Both the position numbers and the translations under genes were made by a program. Below the pieces are notes generated by a model that had not been told where the DNA came from, ran no database searches, and worked only from the letters and a program-made list of their open reading frames with translations. Shown here in pieces: positions 16,723-28,755 of a DNA stretch of 52,521 nucleotides. The first letter of the stretch is position 1. Every line of letters starts with the position of its first letter. This stretch comes from Clostridia bacterium (lineage in GTDB: Bacteria; Bacillota; Clostridia; Oscillospirales; RGIG577), in contig JAFQZS010000028.1 of NCBI GenBank assembly GCA_017405765.1, forward strand, positions 1 to 52,521, given 5' to 3'.

Positions 16723-16822
16723 TGTTGTAAGAGATTTGTGTGCGCATTTTTTTAAAATTTTTTTAAAAATTTTTAAAAAAATGTGTTTTTAAAGCGTTTT
16801 TCGCCTCAAAAAAGCCGTTTTT

Positions 16823-16945
16823 TTAGAACCAAGGTTCTAATATTCCCTTTTCAATTATCCTTTTTCTTGCTTTTCCCTTTTCCATGCCTTCCCCCTGGGG
16901 GGAAGGTGTCACCGCAGGTGACGGATGAGGGGTTATTTTAGCTTT
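16823..16945. repeat. Dispersed repeat: palindrome plus GGGGAAGG/GACGGATGAGG block
   Basis: It starts with the palindrome TTAGAACCAAGGTTCTAA (16823-16840), followed by a C/T-rich stretch that recurs at 26337. Then comes TTCCCCCTGGGGGGAA and TGTCACCGCAGGTGACG, two strong hairpins ending in GATGAGGGG. The last part resembles intergenic repeats I know from gut Clostridia. The rest of the 16.5-17.06 kb gap holds the S-layer promoter region and otherwise nothing I recognise. Confidence 0.65.
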
Positions 16946-21279: not shown

Positions 21280-21557
21280 AAAAACAAAAAACCACATCAT
21301 CCCATTCATTGGGACGATGTGGTCGTGGTGCCACCCAATTTCAAGCCTAAAAAGGCTCCTCTAACAGATACGCGGACAAGCCGGTGATATCCTGCCCCTG
21401 TAACGCGAGGCGCGCGGCGCAGGCTACTTTAAAAAATTTCGCCTTTGCTTCTTCGGAAGTCCATTCACTTAGCTCCACGTACCCGCATCCCACCGCCGCA
21501 GGCTCTCTTGACCGCTTATACAAAGCTACTTCTCTTCGTCAACGAATTTCTGATATT
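21280..21557 (-). promoter_or_regulatory. Tryptophan-type T-box leader
   Basis: The leader of trpB carries the T-box sequence GGGTGGCACCACGAC (21324-21336 region), a following terminator (stem ACCACATCGTCCCA/TGGGATGATGTGGT, 21291-21322, then a U run), and an upstream AGAGAG/GGGATGCGGGTACG stem I region. The specifier loop reads AAGTGAATGGACTTCC, placing a TGG (Trp) codon at 21461-21463. Uncharged tRNA-Trp would bind and favour antitermination. This fits a Trp biosynthetic gene. The specifier call is by pattern, not by folding. Confidence 0.88.
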
Positions 21558-22491: not shown

Positions 22492-24303
22492 TCATTTGAA
22501 TATATAAAGCGACGGAACATTGAATCTGTTTAATGTCTCGCTTGTCGGGCCGCATTGATTCTCTTCGTTGAGTCCCCACGTATAGAGACGTTCGCCCGAC
22601 GTCGTAAGCAGCAAAGTATGGTCGAATCCGAAGGCAAGCTCTCCCGTGTCCGACATGAGCTGTCTTGCGTCGCGCACGTCGTTTTCCGTGTCGCGTCCCA
22701 GACGGTAGTTAAAATTCTGTCCCCACGACCATACTCCGCCGTTCGATTTTATCGCAAACACGGAATTGTCGTTTATATAAAGCTTTTCTACTTTGTAAGT
22801 AATATATGTGGGCTCGCTTACGGTCTCGTCTACCTTCACCTTGCTCATGCCTATGCGGCCGCCCCAGTTTCTGCCCATCGCGTAAAGGTCCTGATCCGTA
22901 TCGGTATAGAACGTTATCTCGTTTCCGGCCCACGCGCCCTGTACGCCCACAGATATAAGCTTAGGCTCGTCAAAGCGTCCGCCCTGATGCGCGGGGTCTA
23001 TCTGTCCCGAAAAATTGCCGCCCCAGCCGTAAAGCTCGTTTTTGTTCGTTATCATAAGAATGTGCGACGTTCCCGCCGATATGTCGCGCACACCGCTCAT
23101 AATAAGCGCGGGCGTCTTGTTCTTTATATCATCGGTGCCGTAAAGCGCGCTGACCATGCGCGTATCGCCCCACTGATATACATCTCCTCCGTAAGTTAGC
23201 GCTGCGGCAAATCCTCCGCTTACAGACACCTTCGCCACGTTATCTAAAATTTTCACGGGCGTGTATACGTCTGCCTCGCTGCCAGTGCCGAGCGTATAAA
23301 GGCTGCCCTCGCCCCAAGCGTAAAGCGCCGCGGAGTTTGTTATGGCATATGTTCTGTTTCTCTGCGCAAGCACATACCGCACGTTTTCAAGCATAACATG
23401 CGGCGTTTCGCCGTCGCCGAATCCATACAGCTTGCCTTCGCTTATATAATAGCCGTGAGACCCCGCCGCAGCCACGGACGAGACGCCTGTAGCCACACGG
23501 CGCGCCCCCGTTATGTGATCGCTTGTCTCAAGGCCGAGCTGATACTTGTCGTTTCTGCCCCAGGCGTAAAGTGCGCCCTTGTCGTCAATGTAAAACGAGG
23601 TGTAGTCTCCCGCGGCAATGCGCGAAGTCTCACTCTGCGAAACGCCGGTTTTCACGGGGGAGACGGTCTGTCCGCCCGATCCGGGGGCTATAAATCCCGT
23701 ATAAAGGCGCCATACCATTGCTATGGCCTGCTCTCTCGTCGCTCCCGAAAGCGGAGCTATGACTGCCGTTTTCGCATTGTCGCTTACGCCCTTTACTATG
23801 CCGAGCTTATACATGAGCTGTACCGATGAATCGGCCCAATCAGATATATCATCCTCGTCGTCGAATATTACATACTGCATCGTTACCGGCGCATTTACGC
23901 CGAGCGCGTCGACAAGCCGTGACATCATAGTGCACATCTCCTGGCGCGTTATGCCGCGCTCTGGCATGAACTGCACTGCAGACACGCCGTTCACGACGCC
24001 TATTTTATAAGCCTTGAGCACATTTATATCGTTCGTGTCGTCAAACACACGGCTGCCCGTATCGGCCGATATAGCGCCCGCCTGTTTTTCGTAGACCGCT
24101 ACGGCTATCGCCGCAAATTCGGCGCGATTTACCGATACTGTAAGATCTTCGGGAAACTCTTTGGGCATAAGCCCCGCATCTTTAAATCCCGACACCTCCG
24201 CATCGGCCCATTCGCTCGTTTTATACTCTGCTCCCGCAAAGCAGAACAGCGATATTAAGAGAGCGAAAACGAGTAAAGTTGAAACTGCCTTTGCTTTTTT
24301 CAT
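22492..24303 (-). CDS. Surface protein with SLH domains and an RCC1-type beta-propeller
   Basis: A 603-residue exported protein. After a signal peptide (cleavage near CFAGA, about 20-25) come three SLH-like domains (about 28-205, with FMPERGITRQEMCTMMSRLV and SGATREQAIAMVWRLY), a Gly/Ser linker, then RCC1 repeats from about 225 to the end. Repeats show GALYAWGRNDKYQLGLETSD, LYAWGEGSLYTLGTGSEAD, ELYGWGGNFSGQID, GVWSWGQNFNYRLGRDTEND and RLYTWGLNEENQCG. SLH anchors it to the wall; RCC1 propellers usually bind other proteins or ligands. Its ATG overlaps the ABC-F stop (ATGA). Function unknown. Confidence 0.88.
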   Translation of the reverse strand: MKKAKAVSTLLVFALLISLFCFAGAEYKTSEWADAEVSGFKDAGLMPKEFPEDLTVSVNRAEFAAIAVAVYEKQAGAISADTGSRVFDDTNDINVLKAYKIGVVNGVSAVQFMPERGITRQEMCTMMSRLVDALGVNAPVTMQYVIFDDEDDISDWADSSVQLMYKLGIVKGVSDNAKTAVIAPLSGATREQAIAMVWRLYTGFIAPGSGGQTVSPVKTGVSQSETSRIAAGDYTSFYIDDKGALYAWGRNDKYQLGLETSDHITGARRVATGVSSVAAAGSHGYYISEGKLYGFGDGETPHVMLENVRYVLAQRNRTYAITNSAALYAWGEGSLYTLGTGSEADVYTPVKILDNVAKVSVSGGFAAALTYGGDVYQWGDTRMVSALYGTDDIKNKTPALIMSGVRDISAGTSHILMITNKNELYGWGGNFSGQIDPAHQGGRFDEPKLISVGVQGAWAGNEITFYTDTDQDLYAMGRNWGGRIGMSKVKVDETVSEPTYITYKVEKLYINDNSVFAIKSNGGVWSWGQNFNYRLGRDTENDVRDARQLMSDTGELAFGFDHTLLLTTSGERLYTWGLNEENQCGPTSETLNRFNVPSLYIFK

Positions 24304-26243
24304 TTTTCTGCCTCCTGATGCTTATTGACTTCCACGGCTGCAAGCTCCTCGCTCAAAGCCTCCCATTTTTCATACGCCTCCGAAAGGCGGCCGTTCGCTT
24401 CGGCCTGCAAATTCGTAAGCTCTATCATTTTTTTATAATCGGACGCCGTCTCGCCGTCCGAAAGCTGCCGCTCGATCTCTTTAAGCTCGTCCTCGAGCGC
24501 CGCTATCTCTTCCTCCGTCCGGCTTATCTTCATATTGAGCGAACGGATGAGCGACTGAGTCTGCTTCTTTTTGAGAAATTCCGCCTTCGTGTCCGACTTT
24601 TTCTCCGTCTGCAGCACCGTCTTCTGCGCTTCGCGTCTGTGCGCCGAAAATTCGTCGTAGCTGCCCGAAAAATCGCCGGCCTCGCCGCCGCTTAAATATA
24701 TTATCCTGTCGCACAGCTTGTTTATAAAGTATCTGTCGTGCGATATAACGAGCATCGTGCCGCCGTAATCTATCAGCGCGTCCTCAAGCGCTTCCTTTGA
24801 ATATATGTCGAGATGGTTTGTCGGCTCGTCAAGTATGAGAAAGTTTGCGCCCTTTAACATAACTTTTAAAAGCGCAATGCGTGCGCGCTCCCCTCCCGAA
24901 AGCTCCGAAACGCTTTTATATACCTCCTCGCCCGAAAAAAGGAACGCCGCAAGCGCGCTTCTTACTTCGGTCTGTGAAAGTGCGGGAAAGTCGTTCCACA
25001 CCTCGCTTATAACGTCGGAGTCGCCGCGAATGTTGCCGCCGAGCTGGTCATAATACGCGACCTCGCACGACGCGCCCGTGCGTATGCTGCCCGTGTAAGG
25101 TATCTGCCCCATAACGGCGCGGAGCAGCGTCGTTTTTCCGGAGCCGTTACGCCCCAAAAGAAAGACTCTCTCTTTATCGGTTATGTCAAACGATACGTTC
25201 CTGAGTATCGGTTCGCCGTCGTAAGAAATGCTTACGTCCTCGCATAAGAGCGCATCGAAGCTGCCTTTTTTTGCAGGCGCAAAAGAAAAATCCAGCCGTT
25301 TTTCATGCCCCTTCGGCTCAACAAGCGTCTTTTTTATGCGCTCGATCTGTTTTAGCTTGCTTTCGGCCGTCCTAATGTTCCTCTCACGGTTCCATTGGCG
25401 TTGTTTTTTTACTATGCCCTCTATTCTTTTTATCTCGCGCATAGTGTTTTCGTAGCGGCGTCTTACGTATTCTTCCTCGCCCTCTTTTCTCTCAAGGTAT
25501 TCGCTGTAAGCGCAGGAGAAAACGGCAAGAGCGCCCCTGTCTATCTCTATCGTTTTACTTGTCACGCGGTCAAGAAAGTATCTGTCGTGAGATATAACTA
25601 TGAACGCGCCCGAAAAGTTTCTTAAAAAATCCTCGAGCCACTCAATGGCCTCTATGTCGAGGTGATTTGTCGGCTCGTCAAGCAATAGAAGATTCGAGTC
25701 GGACAAAAGCAGCTTTGAAAGCGCAAGCTTCGAAAGCTGGCCGCCGCTCAAAGAGGAAAGCGGGCGCGAAAAGTCATCCTCCGAAAAGCCCAGTCCCTTA
25801 AGCGTTGCCGCAACGCGGCTCTTATAATAAAGTCCCCCGTCTGCAGTGAACTCGTCGTGCAGGCGGGCGTGGCGCGAGATAAGGCGTTCGCGTTCGCTCT
25901 CGTTCAAATCGGCGCAGCTCATTTTTTTCGTCATGCTCTCAAGCTCGTTCTCTTTTTCGATAAACGCTGAAAACGTACTCATAAGCTCTTCCCACAGCGT
26001 CTTGTCCCTGTTTTCAGTCACAAATTGCGAAAGATATGACATCTTAGCGTCGCGTCCGAAAGTTATGACGCCGCCGTCGCTTTTTTCCTCCCCCGTAAGC
26101 AGGCGAAAAAGCGTAGTCTTGCCTGCGCCGTTCTTTCCGACAAGGGCCGCCTTCTCCCCGGGCTCCAAGGAAAAGGAGACGCTTTTAAGTATCTCTCTGT
26201 CGCCGAAATATTTACTTAAATCGGAAACATGTAATATGCCCAT
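24300..26243 (-). CDS. ABC-F family ATPase (ribosome-associated type)
   Basis: A 647-residue protein with two ABC domains and no membrane segments. The first has Walker A GKNGAGKTT (about 37-45), LSGGQLSKLALSKLLL and LLDEPTNHLD. The second has GRNGSGKTTLLRAV, LSGGERARIALLKVML and LDEPTNHLD. A linker rich in Arg/Lys/Glu joins them and a coiled-coil tail follows (about 540-640), as in YdiF/Uup. Such proteins act on ribosomes; some give antibiotic resistance, but the linker does not let me claim that. I start at ATG 26241-26243 with GGAG six bases upstream. It is the first gene of the operon with the SLH/RCC1 and patatin genes. Confidence 0.9.
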   Translation of the reverse strand: MGILHVSDLSKYFGDREILKSVSFSLEPGEKAALVGKNGAGKTTLFRLLTGEEKSDGGVITFGRDAKMSYLSQFVTENRDKTLWEELMSTFSAFIEKENELESMTKKMSCADLNESERERLISRHARLHDEFTADGGLYYKSRVAATLKGLGFSEDDFSRPLSSLSGGQLSKLALSKLLLSDSNLLLLDEPTNHLDIEAIEWLEDFLRNFSGAFIVISHDRYFLDRVTSKTIEIDRGALAVFSCAYSEYLERKEGEEEYVRRRYENTMREIKRIEGIVKKQRQWNRERNIRTAESKLKQIERIKKTLVEPKGHEKRLDFSFAPAKKGSFDALLCEDVSISYDGEPILRNVSFDITDKERVFLLGRNGSGKTTLLRAVMGQIPYTGSIRTGASCEVAYYDQLGGNIRGDSDVISEVWNDFPALSQTEVRSALAAFLFSGEEVYKSVSELSGGERARIALLKVMLKGANFLILDEPTNHLDIYSKEALEDALIDYGGTMLVISHDRYFINKLCDRIIYLSGGEAGDFSGSYDEFSAHRREAQKTVLQTEKKSDTKAEFLKKKQTQSLIRSLNMKISRTEEEIAALEDELKEIERQLSDGETASDYKKMIELTNLQAEANGRLSEAYEKWEALSEELAAVEVNKHQEAEK

Positions 26244-26273
26244 ATGAAGCTCCATTGTAAACAATTCTTTACT

Positions 26274-26302
26274 ATTCTATCATACCCCGATAACAATGTA
26301 AA
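26274..26302 (-). promoter_or_regulatory. Promoter of the ABC-F operon
   Basis: On the minus strand TTTACA (26297-26302), 17 bases, TAGAAT (26274-26279), about 30 bases before the start codon. Confidence 0.65.
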
Positions 26303-26336
26303 GACAAAAGTAAAAAAGAATGCCGTCTTCATCATT

Positions 26337-26400
26337 TTAGAACCAAGGTTCTAAGACTCCTTTTCAATATGCTTCTCTTGCTTTGAAAGCAAGAGAAAAC
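26337..26400. repeat. Second copy of the TTAGAACC palindrome repeat
   Basis: The palindrome TTAGAACCAAGGTTCTAA (26337-26354) and the following TCCTTTTCAAT plus CTTGCTTT match 16823-16875. It is followed by a CTTGCTTTGAAAGCAAG hairpin. It lies in the gap between the ABC-F gene and the structured segment. Confidence 0.7.
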
Positions 26401-26459
26401 CTTAAAACTCCGTTTTAAGAATTTGATCCCCCTGCCGGGGGGCGTACTTTTGTAACCTC

Positions 26460-27115
26460 AGACCACCCCAAAAAATCCGCTTCGCGTATTTTTAGGTGAC
26501 CCCGGCGTACCAAAAGTCCCGAGAGGCTGCCGCCTCTCCGTCTCTCCGCTCCCTCGCTCCAACGCCGCCTCTCGGCGGCGCCAGCCGCTCGGCGTTACTC
26601 AAATATGACTTATGTCTCGCCATCTACTGGCGATAAGCGCAATTTGCTTTATAGCTTGGAGCCTTTTCGCCATGAGGGCGCATTCTAGAAGCTTACAGCC
26701 ATCACTGGTGTTCCGCGGCCGAGCCGCTCCAAGTCCCCGATGCCCGTTAGAAGAAGGTAACATTAAACAAGCCGCTTTTTAGCAATAGCTTTCTTCTAGC
26801 GGAAACCGGAGTGTCGGGCGCGTGCGACGCGCCCGTCAAATTGGTGGAGAAGATATCTTGAATTGGCCCTCACATCGAGGAAGGCTGGAAGTATACTTTA
26901 GATCATGACCTTCTAGCCGAAGATCGGAGATGAATAATTTGCTGTAAGAGCCGCAGTATGGGCCTGTGGGTCTCCCCTCGTGTGGGGACGGGGGAGCAAA
27001 GCCCACGGAAATTTTGGTTCGCGCCTGGCCCCTAAAAATACGCGAAGCGGATCCCGGGGTCCCCAAAAAATGCTTTCATTTTTTGGGGTGGGTCCAAGGG
27101 GGAAGGCTTTTGGGG
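26460..27115. repeat. Gene-less GC-rich segment flanked by inverted repeats; candidate structured RNA or non-autonomous element
   Basis: No credible coding frame on either strand. The left flank (26464-26500: CACCCCAAAAAATCCGCTTC, CGCGTATTTTTAGG, TGACCCCGG) recurs inverted at 27028-27092 with an extra hairpin inserted. Between them are strong stems: GAGAGGC/GCCTCTC and CGCCGCC/GGCGGCG (26521-26581), CCGTTAGAAGAA/TTCTTCTAGCGG (26745-26802), GGGCGCGT/ACGCGCCC (26817-26834), GGCTGGAAG/CTTCTAGCC (26883-26919), and a GGGCC/GTGGG/CCCC group (26959-27006). It could be a non-autonomous mobile element or a large structured RNA. It matches no RNA family I can name; strand unknown. Confidence 0.55.
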
Positions 27116-27180
27116 GCGCCCGCGCCTCCCGCCCACGGCAGTTTATCAGAAATTTTGGCGCCGCAGTCCCAATATAAAAT

Positions 27181-27212
27181 GCAGACCGAAAGCGAACGAT
27201 CTTTCGGTCTGC
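27181..27212 (-). terminator. Terminator after the DUF1667 gene
   Basis: GCAGACCGAAAG and CTTTCGGTCTGC form a perfect 12-base stem with an 8-base loop, 15 bases beyond the stop codon. The minus-strand continuation is ATTTTATATT, only moderately U-rich. Confidence 0.7.
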
Positions 27213-27226
27213 AAAAAATCAATATG

Positions 27227-27601
27227 TTACTGCACGTATTTTTTTACGTTGGCTCTCGCTATTATATCAATGCCCGAATCCATGAAATTCTTTATTATTA
27301 CTTTGCCGAACTCTAAAGGGGCCTCGACCTCGGCTTTTTTCAGGGCCTTCTCAAAGGCCTCGACCATGGGGCCGGGCACAGGCTCCGCGCTTCTGACTTT
27401 GGCTATGGATACGGCTCCGTTCTTAACGTAAACGTCCGCTTCAACGAGCGAATCCGGCGGAGCGACCGTTTCGTATATGAATTTTTCGCCCTTCGGACAC
27501 GCAGCGCCCTTTATGGTGATAATCCTTCCCGCCTCCTCAAGATAAGTTATCATGCAGCCGTTCGTGCAGCGTGGACACGTTTTGAACCTTTGAACTACCA
27601 T
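27227..27601 (-). CDS. DUF1667 cysteine-cluster protein
   Basis: A 124-residue protein with four Cys at the N-terminus (CPRC-TNGC and a later AACPKG), as in DUF1667, which probably holds an iron-sulfur cluster or metal. The C-terminal part (PLEFGKVIIKNFMDSGIDII) also fits. The family is usually encoded next to an FAD-dependent glycerol-3-phosphate-dehydrogenase-like oxidoreductase, which is missing here. GGGAGGATATTTT precedes the ATG. It lies 17 bases after hemW on the same strand and is probably co-transcribed with lepA-hemW. Confidence 0.82.
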   Translation of the reverse strand: MVVQRFKTCPRCTNGCMITYLEEAGRIITIKGAACPKGEKFIYETVAPPDSLVEADVYVKNGAVSIAKVRSAEPVPGPMVEAFEKALKKAEVEAPLEFGKVIIKNFMDSGIDIIARANVKKYVQ

Positions 27602-27618
27602 AAAATATCCTCCCTTAT

Positions 27619-28755
27619 TTAGATTTGTGACAGAATATCGGCTATTATGCTGTTTGATATCAAAAAGCCCTTTGGCGTAAGTGCGGTGTGCGCCTCGTCC
27701 GAGAGCATATGCCCCAAAGCCGTATAAGCGCTTATCGAGCTTTTGAACCTTTCCCGGAAATCAAATCCGAACTCGCCGTAAAACTCGCCCGGGCGTATGC
27801 CGCGTGTCGTTCTGAGCCTAAGCATAATATACTCGAAAAGCCTGTCCTCCCGCGTAAGCGTTTCTCTTTCGCACACGGGCGAACGCGCCTTTTTTACGGC
27901 TTCTATATACTTCTTTACGTCCGGCTCGTTTGAAAAGCGCGCGCCGCCGAAAAACGAATGAGCCGCCGAGCCTATTCCGAGATATTCGCTTCCCAGCCAA
28001 TAGCGCATATTATGCCTCGAATGAAAGCCCTCCTTTGCGTAATTGGATATTTCATATTGAAGATATCCGCTCTCCTCCAGATGGCGCGTAAGAAAAAGAT
28101 ACATATCGGCGCACTCGTCGTCGTTTGGAAGCAAAAGCTCGTCGCGCATCTCAAAAAAGCGCGTCCCCTCCTCTATTTTAAGGCCGTAGGCTGAAATATG
28201 CTCTGCTGACATGGAAACGGCGTAATCTATGGAGCGTGAAAGCGAAGCGAGCGTCTGGCCGGGCAGCCCCGTCATAAGATCAAGGCTTATATTCTTAAAT
28301 CCGCAGCCGCGCGCCAAAAGAAAGCTCTGCTCGAACCGCTTCGCGGTATGAATGCGGCCGAGCGTTCTAAGCTCGGAGTCGAGCGCGCTTTGAAGCCCCA
28401 TTGATATGCGGTTCGCACCGATCCTTCGCGCCGCCGAAAAAAACTCCTTTGTGCCCGTGTCGGGATTTGCCTCAAACGTAAATTCGGCATTGTCGGCTAT
28501 GCGCACGTTTTTTCGTATATGCGCTCCCAATGAAAGTATCTGCTCGGGCAAAAGCACAGACGGCGTGCCGCCGCCTACATATATCGTGTCTACAATATAA
28601 TCCGCAAGCGCCTCGCGGTACGACGAAAGCTCGCGTCCCACGGCTTCTATATAAGCGTCGCGATAACGCTCCATATTCTCATATGAACGAAAATCACAAT
28701 AGGCGCACTTTTTCACACAAAACGGCACATGGATGTAAAGGCCTATGCTTTTCAT
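27619..28755 (-). CDS. hemW: HemW-type radical SAM protein
   Basis: A 378-residue radical SAM protein. The cluster motif is CVKKCAYCDF (Cys13, Cys17, Cys20). YVGGGTPS, FEANPD, NRISMGLQS, DLMTGLPGQT and the C-terminal winged-helix-like HemN domain (about 300-378) are visible. HemW proteins bind heme and were long annotated as oxygen-independent coproporphyrinogen oxidase. Its ATG at 28753-28755 overlaps the lepA stop (TAATG), the conserved lepA-hemW arrangement of Bacillota. A longer upstream frame lies inside lepA and is rejected. Confidence 0.92.
   Translation of the reverse strand: MKSIGLYIHVPFCVKKCAYCDFRSYENMERYRDAYIEAVGRELSSYREALADYIVDTIYVGGGTPSVLLPEQILSLGAHIRKNVRIADNAEFTFEANPDTGTKEFFSAARRIGANRISMGLQSALDSELRTLGRIHTAKRFEQSFLLARGCGFKNISLDLMTGLPGQTLASLSRSIDYAVSMSAEHISAYGLKIEEGTRFFEMRDELLLPNDDECADMYLFLTRHLEESGYLQYEISNYAKEGFHSRHNMRYWLGSEYLGIGSAAHSFFGGARFSNEPDVKKYIEAVKKARSPVCERETLTREDRLFEYIMLRLRTTRGIRPGEFYGEFGFDFRERFKSSISAYTALGHMLSDEAHTALTPKGFLISNSIIADILSQI

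Follow-up and report, generated by a model that had tools for sequence, protein, structure and literature searches.

A mosaic of palindromic modules in an intergenic spacer of ruminant-gut Clostridia, probably a non-autonomous mobile DNA element

A gene-free spacer in a 52,521-nucleotide stretch of a Clostridia genome (contig JAFQZS010000028.1 of assembly GCA_017405765.1; hereafter the window) probably holds one copy of a non-autonomous, dispersed palindromic element of the foldback, MITE- or REP-like kind, whose internal stems are palindromes of the DNA itself. The element is a mosaic of modules. Dispersed copies, inverted ends, a lack of coding capacity, a vacant site in a congener and nested insertions together support a non-autonomous element, one of two readings offered by an earlier note on this DNA. 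The other, a large structured RNA, is not supported: a GC-rich nested palindrome can pass by eye for a large RNA. The repeat family has no description in Rfam or in the literature searched.

Extent, copies and genomic setting

The repeat unit occupies a spacer between one gene's terminator and the next gene's promoter. It starts at about 26335 and ends at about 27092, a copy of some 760 bases that begins earlier than the 26460 given in the earlier note. The gene-free stretch between inverted repeats which that note described was confirmed: 26335-27092 holds no genes and has inverted repeats at both sides, and the short frames of the region matched no Pfam family. On either side lie an ABC-F gene (24300-26264, minus strand) and a second gene (27227-27601, minus strand). 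The clearest promoter-like and terminator-like sites are those of these flanking genes, and none stands out inside the element:

26274-26302, minus strand: promoter-like site TTTACA-17-TAGAAT, its second hexamer preceded by TG, upstream of the ABC-F gene; outside the element
27180-27213, minus strand: intrinsic-terminator-like site after gene 27227-27601; outside the element

No preference in neighbour-gene orientation is visible across copies, the stop-to-stop frames being too noisy for one.

The element is dispersed in its own genome (G000) and in two congeners (G001 and G002). The whole region has 38 matches within G000 and the left outer arm (query 26330-26462) has 45; core matches number 21 in G000, 33 in G001 and 12 in G002. 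Querying 59 relatives with the whole region returned matches only from genomes of the genus, plus one weak match, and a genome scan identifies the two congeners with RGIG5637 and RGIG577, both MAGs of ruminant-duodenum Clostridia. Many copies in these MAGs are located at a contig end or close to one, so complete elements are hidden. Elsewhere in the window lie a solo piece of the left outer arm (16821-16873, plus strand, 87% identity) and a T-box leader (21307-21551, minus strand, 104.8 bits), the sole Rfam gathering match in the window.

One congener lacks the element at the syntenic site. Gene order there is the same: window 25601-26327 aligns to G002 870-1594 and window 27227-28200 to G002 1770-2744, which leaves 175 bp in G002 where the window has 899. 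The G002 site could in principle have lost the element instead of never having been occupied. In G001 the neighbourhood differs on one side. No target-site duplication, for which the earlier note suggested a check, is evident in 26300-27300, where the only direct repeat reported is 14 nt long with an 86% match, and the G002 site is too diverged to give an exact join.

Modules, inverted ends and inserted hairpins

The copy is a composite of an outer arm, a hairpin end (H0 and P1), a core in two halves, and a 43-nt hairpin at both ends. Its parts are:

26335-26443, unstranded: left outer arm with AGAACC..GGTTCT-type palindromes; elsewhere in the genome also alone and inverted
26444-26452, unstranded: 5' arm of H0, GTACTTTTG, with partner CAAAAGTAC; H0 covaries across genera
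26458-26505, unstranded: inserted 43-nt REP-like hairpin, left copy, CCACCCCAAAAAATCCGC..GCGTATTTTT..GACCCCGG; missing there in L052, L053 and L055
26506-26809, plus strand: core unit A (5' half), CAAAAGTCC, with hairpins P1, P2 and P3 and a palindromic tail; matches of covariance model R1
26521-26538, plus strand: hairpin P1, GAGAGGC/GCCTCTC; covariation
26563-26580, plus strand: hairpin P2, CGCCGCC/GGCGGCG; species-specific sequence, register kept at three pairs
26715-26727, plus strand: hairpin P3, GCGGC CGA GCCGC; GC to TA double change in L076 and L091
26744-26802, plus strand: 12-bp stem of the earlier note at the A/B junction, 26744-26755 with 26791-26802; arms assort independently in nine copies
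26810-27020, plus strand: core unit B (3' half), with hairpin P4 (26816-26834) and stem 26883-26918; this half also occurs solo
27024-27053, unstranded: inserted REP-like hairpin, right copy, inverse of the left; inverted repeat I1, same in L051
27054-27092, unstranded: second small hairpin CCCCAAAAAATG/CATTTTTTGGGG, nested in the right copy; inverted repeat I5

The nested strong stems of the earlier note are real features of the sequence. All three that it named are present: CCGTTAGAAGAA (26744-26755) with TTCTTCTAGCGG (26791-26802), comprising 11 Watson-Crick pairs and one G-T; GGGCGCGT (26816-26823) with ACGCGCCC (26827-26834); and GGCTGGAAG (26883-26891) with CTTCTAGCC (26910-26918).

The two halves of the core occur apart. 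Unit A stands without the 3' half at L054, L055, L058, L078 and L080, and solo 5' halves were found in both G000 and G002. In G001, loci L156-L167 contain some 15 solo homologues of unit B, accompanied by the right arm. In G000 the same P3 region also follows an alternative 5' module. At the 3' flank of P1 (alignment A1, columns 37-45), two alleles, CCGTCTCTCCGC and CGGACTCTTCGC, are each shared by G000 and G001, which implies that sublineages of the element either predate the species split or were exchanged.

The inverted ends are likewise layered. Two inverted repeats bracket the core, 26475-26521/27006-27052 (47 nt, 81% complementary) and 26463-26476/27078-27091 (14 nt, 100% complementary), and part of what the earlier note took for the element's ends belongs to a distinct 43-nt hairpin, inserted on both sides. 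In the window copy this hairpin sits in the H0 loop, splitting the partner CAAAAGTAC, and its inverse lies at the right end. The partner is intact in L052, L053 and L055, which preserve the state without the insertion, GGGGGGCGTACTTTTG-loop-CAAAAGTACCAAAAGTCCCGAGAG. Among G001 copies the 43-nt hairpin occupies several different places, and both ends in L088; its varying position marks it as a separate element. The symmetry of its insertions suggests copying between inverted arms. Sequence similar to the second small hairpin occurs elsewhere in the genome (query 615-684).

In complete G001 copies the inverted arms align over 128-165 positions at 78-93% identity; another copy gave just 29 aligned positions, and two were not parseable. 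The window copy keeps the left arm and the core ends, and L051 has an inverted copy of the left outer arm downstream of its core. Beyond the arms, the outer flanks contain further dispersed palindromes. Those at L077, L073 and L054 include CCTTCCCC..GGGGAAGG with GCCGTGACGGATGAGG, and TGTCATCCTGAGCGAAGCGAAGGATCTT. Because other palindromes crowd the same spacers, the intergenic regions of the genus are nested repeat mosaics.

Folding, covariation and the RNA reading

It is unlikely that the element carries a large structured noncoding RNA, that is, a transcribed and functional core that folds into P1-P4 and was spread by its inverted ends. Stability speaks for such an RNA. The core (26507-27020) folds at -206.8 kcal/mol, and on either strand none of 100 dinucleotide shuffles is as stable (z = -6.0 on the plus strand and -4.8 on the minus strand). 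The same excess over shuffles, together with the many homologous copies, leaves almost no probability that this is a plain spacer with chance stems, although high GC yields many stems by chance.

The strand on which folding is favoured flips by species: G001 copies fold better as minus, whereas G000 copies fold slightly better as plus. Over the inner core of 20 long copies, mean fold energy is -158.4 (plus) versus -162.4 (minus), and no consistent strand bias emerges. Around the junction stem the plus strand does fold better in some G000 copies, which keeps an RNA role unlikely rather than at zero. The strand test on this stem gave 27 G-U against 19 A-C cells, not a significant difference; in the inverted arms the counts are 73 and 56.

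Covariation is confined to the small hairpins. P1 and P2 covary between species, and double changes that separate species or copies leave P1, P2 and P3 intact, which counts in favour of an RNA. Across 35 core sequences, however, no pair was significant when tested against a tree-based null: the best E was 0.175, and the highest-scoring pairs of positions are not base pairs. The long 12-bp stem shows no covariation and pairs at shuffle level in nine own-genome copies, with 78.7% of cells paired versus 78.4% in shuffled arms. At the hairpin end, H0 and P1 show double changes across genera in 7 of 16 pairs (32 cells), whereas slid controls reach at most one pair and 8 cells. This covariation would also fit an RNA, but G-U occupies just 1 of 320 H0/P1 cells, a near-absence that, as a pattern in aligned sequences, fits DNA palindromes better than RNA without amounting to proof.

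The comparison with known large RNAs points the same way. ROOL, GOLLD, OLE and HEARO are of similar length and likewise have strong stems and intergenic locations, but neither the region nor twelve further loci gave an Rfam family match at gathering score, these four included, and a permissive scan of 26300-27300 gave only chance-level matches far below family cut-offs. Also at odds with an RNA are the want of a conspicuous internal promoter or terminator and the completely different interiors found in genera with common ends.

Known repeat families, the putative mover and the hairpin end

As a non-autonomous DNA element, the repeat resembles several known families and coincides with none. It is MITE-like in being short, non-coding, intergenic and present in tens of copies with inverted ends; the G001 arms are terminal inverted repeats, and the copies are both non-coding and numerous. 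It differs from MITEs in its onion-like composite structure and interchangeable halves; no target-site duplication is evident in 26300-27300, and the fetched loci show no parent transposase. In the Bacillus cereus group, bcr1 is an intergenic repeat with a 167-nt model and a predicted common structure (PMC2267715, Tables 3 and 4), and the title of reference B24 in that paper ascribes mobile element characteristics to it. As far as those tables and that title describe them, bcr1 and other stem-loop repeat families are, like the present element, group-specific, intergenic and dispersed, with a conserved predicted fold; the present element differs in its greater size and in being a mosaic with long inverted arms, a separation from bcr1 by description only.

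The small dispersed and nested hairpins, the 43-nt one included, also invite comparison with a REP cluster, a BIME-like block of REPs mobilised by a RAYT (Y1) transposase. REPs measure 20-40 bp (PMC3733652). The core, a conserved block of about 500 nt, is much longer, and only the inserted 43-nt hairpin comes near that size. The transposase family (PF01797, Y1_Tnp) is represented by a single gene in one of the three species (143 bits, G001:C31:21178-21534, minus strand, L155); G000 and G002 carry the same elements and have no Y1_Tnp gene. We regard a RAYT-driven REP cluster as very unlikely.

A non-autonomous element of this kind would owe its spread to a transposase provided in trans and recognising the H0-P1 hairpin end. 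Nested insertion, unequal recombination and copying between inverted arms would then have built the onion-like composite, which most likely is now largely a fossil mosaic. Its internal stems would mirror palindromes at the DNA level, with no folded RNA product. Since its own genome has no Y1/RAYT gene, and neither a parent nor a target duplication was found, we can only infer the mover. None of the copies in the fetched loci encloses a transposase within such ends. Fetched loci bearing the G001 arm, considered as a possible autonomous parent, are solo 3' halves and not transposons.

The hairpin end reaches beyond the genus. The earlier note had supposed that the region is widespread in gut Clostridia, which holds for the H0-P1 ends, multi-copy in four other Clostridia genera with different interiors, and not for the core. 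Searches of 394 genomes of the order, by a core pattern and by a covariance model built on the 5' end, placed the core in one genus of ruminant-gut Clostridia only. Elsewhere in the class, weak multi-copy matches to the covariance model turned up in other genera; their likeness to the element is limited to the end, where TGTWCTTTTGTRACCAAAAGWACCAAAAGTYCC is followed by a hairpin. With one mismatch allowed, a 22-nt end motif occurs in 6 of 361 class genomes at 2 to 11 copies per genome, against 0 for the reversed control, and this hairpin end is nearly identical across different Clostridia families. A 30-nt version of the end is absent from 377 other genomes in a phylum-wide sample, and the end motif had no match in viral contigs. 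Judged from these sequence searches, the core appears genus-restricted as far as tested, and the end module appears spread more widely but sparsely.

A near-identical end on unrelated interiors points to a common, putative mover. The hairpin ends that recur in unrelated Clostridia seem undescribed; searches for AAAAGTACCAAAAG and related wording found nothing relevant in a literature largely without subscription papers. A bolder proposal takes the H0-P1 end as the hallmark of an undescribed Clostridia mobile-element superfamily whose interior would be a genus-specific structured RNA needed for mobility or host fitness; we hold this to be distinctly unlikely.

The same H0-P1 end flanks wholly different interiors at L197 and L198 (G704), at L185-L193 (G520) and at L194-L196 and L216 (G670). 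The sequence of a G520 copy had no match in plasmid records. The form in that genome is a compact unit of about 92 nt with three hairpins. In G670, L216 (1500-2140) has inverted ends, and its interior is inverted relative to L205 and L211 of the same genome.
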